DNA of 64,000 nucleotides from an uncultured Sulfitobacter sp. Its GTDB lineage: Bacteria; Pseudomonadota; Alphaproteobacteria; Rhodobacterales; Rhodobacteraceae. The notes under the pieces were generated by a model that was not told the DNA's origin, did not search any database, and was given only the letters and a program-made list of their open reading frames with translations. Position 1 is the first letter of the stretch, and every line of letters starts with the position of its first letter. The position numbers and the translations under genes were made by a program. The DNA lies in assembly GCA_913060815.1 (NCBI GenBank), contig CAJXSZ010000005.1:62001-126000 (forward strand). Reading direction: 5' to 3'. Below, piece by piece: positions 29,973 to 51,377 of the stretch.

Positions 29973-30212
29973 ATGGCGTCTGATAGACAGAACCTTCAGG
30001 ATGCGTTCCTGAACCACGTACGCAAGAGCAAAGTACCGGTTACGATCTTCCTGATTAACGGGGTTAAGCTGCAGGGTGTGGTCACCTGGTTTGACAATTT
30101 CTGCGTCCTGTTGCGCCGCGATGGCCAGTCCCAGCTTGTCTACAAGCATGCGATTTCAACAATCATGCCAAGCCAGCCGATCAGCCTCTATGACGGCGAA
30201 GATGCTAATTGA
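29973..30212 (+). CDS. hfq: RNA chaperone Hfq
   Basis: [64 protein letters not shown]. Confidence 0.98.
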
Positions 30213-47413: not shown

Positions 47414-49228
47414 TCATTCTTCCCACCACCACGTCTCGGGCATCCATTGAGAGCCGTCGCCATAAATTGGCAAGTCAGGAGAGAATTTCATCTGGCGCAC
47501 ATGTGCGATCCGGCCTTCGGTATAGGACCAGAAAGGGATGACATAACGGCCCGCCGTCAGCACACGATCCAGCGCGCGGGTGGCCGCGATGAAATCTACG
47601 CTGTCGCGGGCATTGAGCATGGTGTCGATCATTGCATCAATCGCAGGATTGCGCGCACCCATCAAATTGCGCGAGCCAGCCTGATCTGCGGCGTCACTGC
47701 CCCAATAGAACTTTTGTTCGTTTCCAGGGCTAAGGGAAAGCGAACGGCGAAATACAGTCATATCGAAATCGAAGTCACCCGTACGCCCGAAGAACTGAGC
47801 GTCGTCAACGGTCTCGATACTGGCCTTGATGCCCAGCCGTTCTAATGCGCGCAAATACAGCTCGGCGATGGCAACGTCTTCGGTGCTGCCTTTGGCAATA
47901 AGGATTGTGAAGGTCACGGCCGAGCCATCGCCGCGCATCATGCGCCCTTCCTGAACAGAATAGCCCGCCGCTTCAAATTGGGCCATTGCGGCACGAATGC
48001 CTGCACGGTTACGCGCCGAGCCATCGGAGACGGGCAGGGCATAGCCGTCCATCGCTCCCGCAGGCAGCGTGTCGATATAGGGCAGCAAAAGTTCGGCCAC
48101 GCGGCCAGACGCGGCACCGTCTTCCTTGCCCAGTACCGAGTTGGAGAAGTAGGAGGTGATCCGAGGCTGCGCACCACCTGTCAGCGTGTCGTTGATATAT
48201 TCAAAGTTGAACGCCTTGATCAGGGCATCACGCACGCGCCAGTCATCAAAGGGCGCGCGGCGTGTGTTCATCACAAAGCCAGTCATGCCCGACGGCTTTT
48301 GATGGCGAATGACGGATTTGACGATATCGCCGCGCGTGATGGCAGGGAAGTCGTATTGCGTCGCCCATGTCTCGGCGTTGAATTCCCGAACGGCAGAGAC
48401 TTCGCCCGCTTTGAACCCTTCGAACAGGACTTTGGAGTCGCCGTAGAAATCCAGCTTCACGGAATCGAAATTATGCGTGCCCTGGCGCAGCGGCAGATCA
48501 GCCCCCCAATATTCAGGGTTACGCGTGAGCTGCACAAAACGACCAGGCTCGTAGTCAGTGATGCTATAGGGGCCAGAGCCGAGCGGGATGTCCTGCACTT
48601 GCGCATTGGCAAAATCGCGGCCTTCCCATTGGGCCTTGGAAATGATGGGGCGCAGGCCCGCCAGCAAAGCCAATTCGCGATTTTCGGTGGTGAAGATGAT
48701 GCGCAGGCTACGCGGAGCTGTCTGCTCAATGCTTTCGATCTGGTTATACAGGCTAAGATAGCGAGGATGTCCCTCGGTCCCGAGCAACTCGAAGCTGAAA
48801 ATCACATCCTCAACCGTTAGCGGGCTGCCGTCAGAGAACGTCGTGCCTTCGCGCAGGGTAAATTCAACCCATGTGCGGTCTTCAGCCGTCTCGATCGTTT
48901 CAGCCAGCAGGCCATAGAGGCTGAACGGCTCGTCCCAAGAACGTCCCATAAGCGTCTCATGGGTAAAGAAGGGCAGTTGCCACGGCGAGGTGCCTTTGAG
49001 CACGAAGGGATTGAGGCTGTCATAGCCGCCCGTATTGCCCAGCGTAATGCTACCGCCTTTGGGTGCATCGGCATTCACATAGGGCAGATTGGTGAAGTCG
49101 GGCGCAAGCGCTGGCGCGCCGTACATAGCGATCGCGTGCTGCGGCTCAGCGGTGGCGGCGATTCCCCAGAGAATCAGTGAAGATAGCGCCACAAAGCCCT
49201 GTACCCGCGAGAAATTATCTAAAGCCAT
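47414..49228 (-). CDS. Extracellular solute-binding protein, family 5 (YejA-like ABC substrate-binding)
   Basis: Signal peptide; HAIAMYGAPALAPDFTNLPYVNADAPKGGSITLG; SBP_bac_5 architecture. Confidence 0.93.
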   Translation of the reverse strand: MALDNFSRVQGFVALSSLILWGIAATAEPQHAIAMYGAPALAPDFTNLPYVNADAPKGGSITLGNTGGYDSLNPFVLKGTSPWQLPFFTHETLMGRSWDEPFSLYGLLAETIETAEDRTWVEFTLREGTTFSDGSPLTVEDVIFSFELLGTEGHPRYLSLYNQIESIEQTAPRSLRIIFTTENRELALLAGLRPIISKAQWEGRDFANAQVQDIPLGSGPYSITDYEPGRFVQLTRNPEYWGADLPLRQGTHNFDSVKLDFYGDSKVLFEGFKAGEVSAVREFNAETWATQYDFPAITRGDIVKSVIRHQKPSGMTGFVMNTRRAPFDDWRVRDALIKAFNFEYINDTLTGGAQPRITSYFSNSVLGKEDGAASGRVAELLLPYIDTLPAGAMDGYALPVSDGSARNRAGIRAAMAQFEAAGYSVQEGRMMRGDGSAVTFTILIAKGSTEDVAIAELYLRALERLGIKASIETVDDAQFFGRTGDFDFDMTVFRRSLSLSPGNEQKFYWGSDAADQAGSRNLMGARNPAIDAMIDTMLNARDSVDFIAATRALDRVLTAGRYVIPFWSYTEGRIAHVRQMKFSPDLPIYGDGSQWMPETWWWEE

Positions 49229-49308
49229 TTTCGAAACAATCCTGCACTGCCCTTTTTTTTATTATCTAAACGTCTAACGGGGTCTGTGCGAGGGCGCAAA
49301 CTTAATGC

Positions 49309-49337
49309 TTGGCGTTTGCGCAGTAATTCCTTATAAA
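49309..49337 (+). promoter_or_regulatory. Predicted sigma70-type promoter of the intergenic sRNA candidate
   Basis: TTGGCG (49309-49314) - 17 nt - TATAAA (49332-49337). Confidence 0.5.
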
Positions 49338-49343
49338 GAAGTC

Positions 49344-49419
49344 ACTGCTCGATAGGTTTCTTGCCTGTATGAAACCTGCCTCAATAACTTGACGCCCGCC
49401 TTGCGCGGGCGTTTTTTTT
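49344..49419 (+). ncRNA. Candidate small RNA of about 76 nt
   Basis: Promoter-like element upstream, stem AGGTTTC/GAAACCT (49354-49377), and an intrinsic terminator with U8; no CDS upstream on this strand. Confidence 0.5.
49393..49419 (+). terminator. Rho-independent terminator
   Basis: CGCCCGC-CTTGC-GCGGGCG followed by TTTTTTTT. Confidence 0.85.
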
Positions 49420-49509: not shown

Positions 49510-50295
49510 ATGGCCCTTACATATGATCTGAGCGGAAAGACCGCCGTTATCACTGGTTCCAATTCTGGTATCGGCCTCGGCATTGCACAGCAATTGGCAC
49601 AGGCGGGTGCGCATGTGGTGCTCAACTCTTTCACAGACCGTAAACAGGACCATGCGCTGGCCGAAGAGATCGCCAATGTGACAGGTGTGAACGCACGGTA
49701 TATCGCCGCTGATATGTCCAAGGGCGATGATTGCCGGATGCTCATCGAAGAGGCGGGTGCCTGCGATATTCTGATCAACAACGCGGGCATTCAGCACGTT
49801 GCCCCGATCCCTGATTTCCCTGCGGCAAAATGGGATGCGATTATCGCGATCAACCTGAGTTCAGCCTTCCACACCACAGCGGCAGCACTGCCGATGATGC
49901 GCGATGCAGGCTGGGGCCGCGTCATCAACATATCTTCCGCCCACGGCCTGACGGCATCGCCCTATAAAGCAGCCTATGTTGCGGCCAAGCACGGCATTGT
50001 AGGGCTGACCAAGACAACCGCCCTTGAGACCGCCGAAGAGCCGATCACGGCGAATGCGATCTGTCCGGGCTATGTGCTGACCCCGCTGGTCGAAAGCCAG
50101 ATCCCCGACACGATGAAAGAATACGACATGAGCCGAGAGGACGTGATCAAAAACGTTATGCTCAAGCGTCAGCCCAGCAAGGACTTTGCGACAGTTGAGC
50201 AGTTGGGTGGCACAGCAGCCTTCCTTTGCTCCGCTGCGGGGGACCAGATCACAGGCACAACGATCAGTGTCGACGGCGGCTGGACCGCACTCTAG
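49510..50295 (+). CDS. bdhA: 3-hydroxybutyrate dehydrogenase (SDR)
   Basis: KTAVITGSNSGIGLGIAQQLAQAGAHVVLNSF; YKAAYVAAKHGIVGLTKTTALE; SDR typical of BdhA. Confidence 0.92.
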   Translation: MALTYDLSGKTAVITGSNSGIGLGIAQQLAQAGAHVVLNSFTDRKQDHALAEEIANVTGVNARYIAADMSKGDDCRMLIEEAGACDILINNAGIQHVAPIPDFPAAKWDAIIAINLSSAFHTTAAALPMMRDAGWGRVINISSAHGLTASPYKAAYVAAKHGIVGLTKTTALETAEEPITANAICPGYVLTPLVESQIPDTMKEYDMSREDVIKNVMLKRQPSKDFATVEQLGGTAAFLCSAAGDQITGTTISVDGGWTAL

Positions 50296-50342
50296 GGTCT
50301 CACACCTCAGAACACAGCCGCAAATTTAAAGGGCACCAACCG

Positions 50343-51377
50343 ATGGCCAAGACCAAAAAGATCAACCTCGCCCTCCAAGGCGGCGGCGCTCATGGGGCCT
50401 TCACATGGGGGGTGCTTGACCGTTTGCTTCAGGAAGACGCTCTTGAAGTATGTGGAATTTCAGGAACTTCTGCGGGGGCTTTAAACGGTGCCGCCCTGAA
50501 GTCAGGCATGATCAAGGGCGGGCGGCAGGGTGCGCGCGATACGCTCGACTGGCTCTGGATGGAGGTGGCGGGGGTATCCGATCTGAGCATCGGCAACTGG
50601 ATGGCGCCGTTCGGCCTTGAAGCGTTGAGCAAACAGATCGAATTCAGCGTGCCCTATATGATGGGTGATGCGGTGACGCGGATGGTATCGCCATATGGAT
50701 ACGGGCCTCTTTATAAGAACCCGCTGCGCAGCATCGTAGAGAAGCTGGATTATGACCGCGTATGCGATCACCATGCGCCGCTGTTCTTTGTGGGAGCCAC
50801 ACGGGTGCGCAACGGCAAGATACGCGTGTTCCAAGGGGATGAGATCGGTCCAGATGCGCTGATGGCGTCGGCCTGTCTGCCGACTGTGTTTCAGGCGATC
50901 GAGATGTACGACAAGACCACGGATCGGGTCGAAGCATTCTGGGACGGCGGCTTTACCGGAAACCCCGCTCTTTTCCCGCTGTTTAGCGGAGATTTGCCCG
51001 CCGATATTGTGATTATCAATATTAATCCGCTGGAGCGGGACGAGATTCCGACCACGCCGCAGGACATCCAGAACCGCATTAACGAGATCAGCTTTAACTC
51101 AAGCCTGCTGCGTGAATTGCGTGCGATTGAATTTGTGCAACGTCTGATCGAGGAAGGGACGATGACCTCTGACGAGATGCACCGCGTGCGCATTCATATG
51201 ATCGCGGATGATGCACTGATGGCCAAATTGTCGGCCGCGACCAAAATGGTGGCCAATGCCCGCGTGATATCCGAGCTGAAAGAGGCAGGCATCGCCGCAG
51301 CGGAGCAATTTCTGCGCGGGGATGTGGACAATATCGGCATCAAAAGCAGCGTCGATCTGCGCGAGATGTTCGCCTAG
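50343..51377 (+). CDS. Patatin-like phospholipase family protein
   Basis: LALQGGGAHGAFTWGVLDRLL oxyanion hole, GISGTSAGALNG GxSxG motif, DGGF. Confidence 0.92.
   Translation: MAKTKKINLALQGGGAHGAFTWGVLDRLLQEDALEVCGISGTSAGALNGAALKSGMIKGGRQGARDTLDWLWMEVAGVSDLSIGNWMAPFGLEALSKQIEFSVPYMMGDAVTRMVSPYGYGPLYKNPLRSIVEKLDYDRVCDHHAPLFFVGATRVRNGKIRVFQGDEIGPDALMASACLPTVFQAIEMYDKTTDRVEAFWDGGFTGNPALFPLFSGDLPADIVIININPLERDEIPTTPQDIQNRINEISFNSSLLRELRAIEFVQRLIEEGTMTSDEMHRVRIHMIADDALMAKLSAATKMVANARVISELKEAGIAAAEQFLRGDVDNIGIKSSVDLREMFA

Follow-up and report, generated by a model that had tools for sequence, protein, structure and literature searches.

A widespread Rhodobacteraceae small RNA gene beside bdhA, very probably the Sulfitobacter version of StsR, and its predicted pairing with the dcw leader

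The window, a 64-kb stretch of DNA from a Sulfitobacter-like genome, contains an intergenic region flanked by two divergent genes, as the initial annotation had described. A gene for a solute-binding protein (SBP) occupies the minus strand (47414-49228), and bdhA, encoding 3-hydroxybutyrate dehydrogenase, the plus strand (49510-50295). Both were identified as open reading frames (ORFs) and by profile searches: the bdhA product scored 358 bits against TIGR01963 (3-hydroxybutyrate dehydrogenase; cut-off 307), and the minus-strand product matched substrate-binding-protein families with scores below their cut-offs. Beyond bdhA there is a patatin-like ORF (50340-51377), whose match to an anti-phage phospholipase family is weak and far below threshold (22 vs 400 bits). 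The hfq gene reported earlier for this window corresponds to an hfq-like ORF of 79 aa, likely an RNA chaperone gene recognised by sequence (29973-30212, plus strand); it is unlinked, lying ~19 kb from the intergenic locus, and its presence in the same 64-kb window is no evidence that an RNA encoded there binds Hfq.

Outside both flanking genes, on the plus strand, lies a small RNA (sRNA) gene of probable StsR type (49344-49419; ACUGCUCGAUAGGUUUCUUGCCUGUAUGAAACCUGCC..., the sequence that StsR would be expected to share). Its promoter elements were read directly from the sequence: a -35 element TTGGCG (49309-49314; conserved core CTTGG, 49308-49312) and a -10 element TATAAA (49332-49337; conserved core TATAA), separated by 17 nt. 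Further upstream, ~41-47 nt before the start, a CAAACTT box (49297-49303, plus strand) is conserved in the alignment. Transcription is predicted to begin at A49344 and to end inside a U8 tract (49412-49419, read directly, its T-run conserved), giving an RNA of 72-76 nt. This RNA would carry a 5' stem-loop (49353-49378) with an 8-bp stem (49353-49360/49371-49378), which includes the inverted repeat AGGTTTC/GAAACCT, and a 10-nt loop, UUGCCUGUAU (49361-49370; loop letters in the sRNA, GCCUGUAU). A linker (49380-49390), single-stranded according to fold prediction and alignment, separates it from a GC-rich intrinsic terminator stem-loop of 9 bp with a 5-nt loop (49391-49413), supported by covariation. 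The promoter, stem-loop, linker and terminator proposed in the initial annotation are all present where it placed them, and its predicted start near 49344 and length of about 76 nt both match the conserved block described below.

Taken singly, the terminator and promoter signals are modest. A terminator scan found 3 sites where 2.1 were expected, and the promoter falls outside the hits of a strict sigma-70 scan. The RNA 49344-49419 folds at -25.7 kcal/mol against a mean of -15.4 for shuffled sequences (z -4.2; 0/200 shuffles as good). With simple scans alone at chance level, one could read the locus as a promoter and a terminator that arose by chance, with no function. We consider the locus to be beyond chance because it is conserved.

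Homologues occur in 387 of the 397 genomes examined (396 genera of the family), and in 348 of the 350 with a completeness of at least 90%. A DNA search with the intergenic stretch matched every same-genus and same-family genome tested; other families of the class yielded nothing convincing. The first 37 nt of the sRNA are identical in all 140 loci examined, and alignment columns 1-40 are invariant among 55 distinct sequences. This invariant block begins exactly at 49344, and conservation falls to background right after the T-run. Upstream of the start, a 95-sequence alignment showed conservation of CTTGG, TATAA and the CAAACTT box, the positions of the latter being 90-100% conserved. A second conserved block (49226-49242) lies just upstream of the divergent SBP gene and is perhaps its ribosome-binding region or leader. 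In the terminator stem, both-side changes occurred in 6/9 pairs and 97.6% of cells were paired (55 distinct sequences), against at most 47% of cells for the whole structure in a control with slid partners. The 5' stem never varies, so covariation neither supports nor refutes it. From this conservation pattern and the terminator covariation, we conclude that the locus is a gene for a structured RNA with its own terminator. The chance reading is already refuted by the 40 invariant columns, the covarying terminator and the near-universal presence in the family, and we give it practically no weight.

The initial annotation had recognised no known RNA family, and Rfam 15 bears this out: no family reached its gathering score, a search at E-value threshold also returned no match reaching the cut-off, and the best sub-threshold match was BjrC1505 (27 vs 50 bits). 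A search of viral sequences found no phage copies of the sRNA; four viral contigs sharing an 18-mer were dismissed as a chance match inside an apparent coding gene. In four Paracoccus records, the sRNA gene sits on a 1.5-2.2 Mb megaplasmid or chromid.

The position ahead of bdhA raises the question of whether the RNA is the attenuated 5' leader of that gene, with a promoter and a conditional terminator ~90 nt upstream of the start codon, an alternative offered by the initial annotation. In favour of such a leader, 134 of 140 loci have bdhA on the same strand, downstream of the sRNA. Yet the sequence between terminator and bdhA is not conserved, dropping to background level past the T-run, and the distance between them ranges from 53 to 1351 nt. 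Six bdhA loci have no copy of the sRNA inside the flank examined, though 348 of 350 near-complete genomes have one. Together with the unconserved gap, these six loci argue against a bdhA attenuator, as does the divergence from the SBP gene, which is kept in all 137 loci where that gene was found. A conserved leader peptide is also absent: the stop of the 7-codon frame ATG AAA CCT GCC TCA ATA ACT TGA is missing from roughly one copy in four, and we rejected this frame, both as a leader peptide and as the ORF of a dual-function RNA, because neither stop nor frame is conserved. An attenuated bdhA leader thus appears highly improbable.

The stand-alone sRNA gene has a promoter of suggestive type. 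Published RpoHI/HII cores comprise TTG at -35 and TAT at -12 (PMC10673084), and both are conserved at matching spacing in the window genome and in the Rhodobacter sphaeroides copy introduced below. By sequence, the promoter thus matches the RpoHI/RpoHII type, and it is also compatible with sigma-70. The CAAACTT box, which recurs upstream of the R. sphaeroides copy, is possibly an activator site or an UP-type element.

The 17 nt that comprise most of the loop and the 3' arm of the 5' stem-loop (GCCUGUAUGAAACCUGC, 49363-49379, plus strand) are complementary to the leader of the dcw (mraZ) operon, the cell-division gene cluster. In R. sphaeroides, this 268-nt leader yields UpsM, a product of 206 nt, which RNase E cuts to release a 130-nt 3' fragment in a process that requires Hfq and RpoHI or RpoHII (PMC5089854). 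Subtracting 130 from 206 places the cut near UpsM nt 76. The R. sphaeroides mraZ leader (GCAGGCTTCATACAGGCA) and sRNA (UGCCUGUAUGAAACCUGC) are complementary at 17 of 18 positions; the site covers UpsM nt 54-71 when numbered from the published start, which places it just upstream of the implied cut. The leader of the window's own genome is divided between two contigs (C37 and C15) that share a 55-nt overlap at their ends, and its site (GCAGGTTTCATACAGGC) is complementary to the sRNA at 17/17 positions. Complementarity never exceeded 13 nt in 2000 trials with shuffled sRNAs, and 17 nt was never reached. The core CATACAGGC is kept in all 31 mraZ leaders examined; in the 30 other family leaders it is preceded by CAGG-TTT variants, usually giving a perfect match. 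The sequence evidence thus predicts that the sRNA base-pairs with UpsM and the dcw 5' UTR. The earlier proposal of a compact sRNA that acts in trans and is transcribed from a promoter of its own is supported.

In terms of energy, the predicted binding in the window's own genome shows a clear gain over shuffled 5' parts (-18.3 vs -5.9 +/- 3.2); in R. sphaeroides the gain is unclear (-11.1 vs -7.8 +/- 2.9), so it is conservation, not energy, that carries the pairing argument. Free UpsM is predicted to be double-stranded at nt 72-83 except nt 76. In the predicted complex, the UpsM hairpin is broken and nt 72-75 are mostly unpaired, part of the remainder being re-paired. StsR of R. sphaeroides is reported to bind UpsM and thereby to open a formerly double-stranded region to RNase E (PMC8307010). 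The modelled opening agrees with this published RNase E access, with a cut position deduced from fragment sizes.

Beyond the pairing site, on its downstream side, a further stretch is highly conserved among the mraZ leaders (AGATCCGGCGCGCGAGCGAGCAGACATCCCCCCAGGTG). It contains a conserved CGAGCAG, complementary to the invariant 5' end of the sRNA, CTGCTCG. Pairing of the sRNA 5' CUGCUCG with this motif was considered as a second site, which we do not claim because the partition function gives it little weight. A search of the window's own genome for other seed targets gave 13 more 12-mer sites with one mismatch; most lay within ORFs or antisense to them, and none was convincing.

A homologue is present in a genome (G169) that we take to be R. 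sphaeroides because its PufL matches that of R. sphaeroides with 100% identity. This copy (C4:1443990-1444072, minus strand) lies between bdhA and the same SBP gene, is preceded by CTTGG...TATAA, and is predicted to span 72-76 nt. In its invariant segment, TGCCUGUAUGAAACCUGC, it shows complementarity to UpsM beside the implied RNase E cut. These properties resemble those of StsR (formerly RSs0827), a stress-induced, 72-nt, Hfq-associated sRNA under RpoHI/RpoHII control whose level is maximal in stationary phase (PMC8307010). StsR and the window sRNA agree in length (predicted 72-76 nt for the latter), RpoH-type promoter, intrinsic terminator and UpsM complementarity beside the RNase E cut, and the R. 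sphaeroides genome has a copy with the gene neighbours seen in the window. They differ in the leader match, which is a perfect 17 nt in the Sulfitobacter-like genome and has 1 mismatch in 18 in R. sphaeroides. StsR also pairs with rpoE mRNA, ~10 nt after the GTG start (PMC8307010); no orthologous RpoE-ChrR pair was identified in the window's own genome, and the expected rpoE/chrR region of R. sphaeroides (2848-2888 kb) was masked. Likened to StsR through its published description and not through its sequence, the window sRNA is very probably an StsR orthologue. What speaks against it is the position of the R. sphaeroides copy on the chromosome.

That position favours the main rival, in which the sRNA pairs with the dcw leader but is distinct from StsR, which would lie elsewhere in R. 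sphaeroides. The index numbers of R. sphaeroides sRNAs with published positions run linearly along the chromosome; linear interpolation would put RSs0827 near 853 kb, whereas the StsR-like copy lies at 1,444 kb, which would correspond to an index near 1370. Close to the interpolated position there is a terminator (858,135) with 11 nt that could pair with the 5' part of UpsM. The region around it (~858.1 kb) lies 3' of an rRNA methyltransferase-like ORF and contains TTCACTGTCCC, which is complementary to UpsM in its 5' part; as CCTTCACTGTCC, the element is also complementary to a spot near the mraZ start. We tried this element as StsR and rejected it: UpsM complementarity is present, but a TTG/TAT promoter of RpoH type at the right distance is absent, and the predicted pairing lies well away from where RNase E cuts. 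Between 760 and 920 kb, the search for RpoH-type sRNA candidates returned none. A scan of ~2.4 Mb of R. sphaeroides chromosome 1 for TTG-TAT followed by a terminator at sRNA distance (outside 80 kb masked stretches, 2.16-2.72 Mb and 2.96-3.19 Mb) returned six candidates, among which only the bdhA-adjacent locus has at least 12 nt of UpsM complementarity, the others having 7 nt or fewer. Length, promoter type, UpsM pairing and cut-adjacent position of the bdhA-adjacent RNA all fit published StsR, and a distinct second sRNA is therefore unlikely. Were it true, the window would hold an undescribed sRNA that is nearly universal in Rhodobacteraceae and likewise acts on the dcw leader, and two stress sRNAs converging on UpsM would gate cell division in the family.

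Returning to StsR orthology, we propose the following model. The stand-alone gene would produce a 72-76 nt StsR orthologue, driven under stress and in stationary phase by the RpoH-type promoter (TTG/TAT). The RNA would be loaded onto Hfq, presumably via the terminator U-tract. First contact would be made by the loop UUGCCUGUAU, which would meet the dcw (mraZ) 5' leader as well as UpsM, terminated early from that leader; AGGTTTC of the leader would then displace the 5' arm of the sRNA, extending the pairing to a duplex of 17-18 bp. The RNase E cut site lies in the 3' arm of a leader hairpin that this duplex would break, after which RNase E could cleave the leader or UpsM and dcw expression would fall. 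In this model, the anatomy of the gene, its conservation across the family, the covariation of its terminator, the conserved complementarity and the predicted refolding were established here, and RpoHI/HII control, UpsM pairing, RNase E cleavage and lower dcw mRNA come from R. sphaeroides papers. We infer that these R. sphaeroides findings carry over to the Sulfitobacter-like organism and that this locus encodes StsR.

The predicted partner, UpsM, is a 206-nt leader product encoded outside this window, and like the window sRNA it is reported to be confined to Rhodobacteraceae. Among better-known systems, Hfq-dependent trans-acting sRNAs such as RyhB (PMC5089854) are likewise short, with their own promoter, a terminator with U8, a seed in a loop or single strand, and RNase E cleavage of the target, here predicted; they have no sequence relation to the window sRNA.

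The find is real and widespread, yet its kind is already described: the window sRNA is very probably the marine (Sulfitobacter) version of StsR. The initial annotation could not see that its sRNA candidate is, very probably, an StsR orthologue, with the dcw/mraZ leader (UpsM) as its likely target. What is usefully added is how widely the gene is conserved, a core of 37 nt that never varies, a partner site that is likewise conserved, and the lack of an Rfam match for an RNA gene that is near-universal in its bacterial family. The invariant 37-nt core and the conserved 17-nt partner site together offer one probe, one seed and one target for many cultured species. Most marine roseobacters, including many that are not phototrophic, belong to the Rhodobacteraceae, a large family of ecological importance. 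If our reading is right, the StsR-UpsM-dcw switch from stress to division, described in one phototroph, would be ancestral and near-universal in this family.
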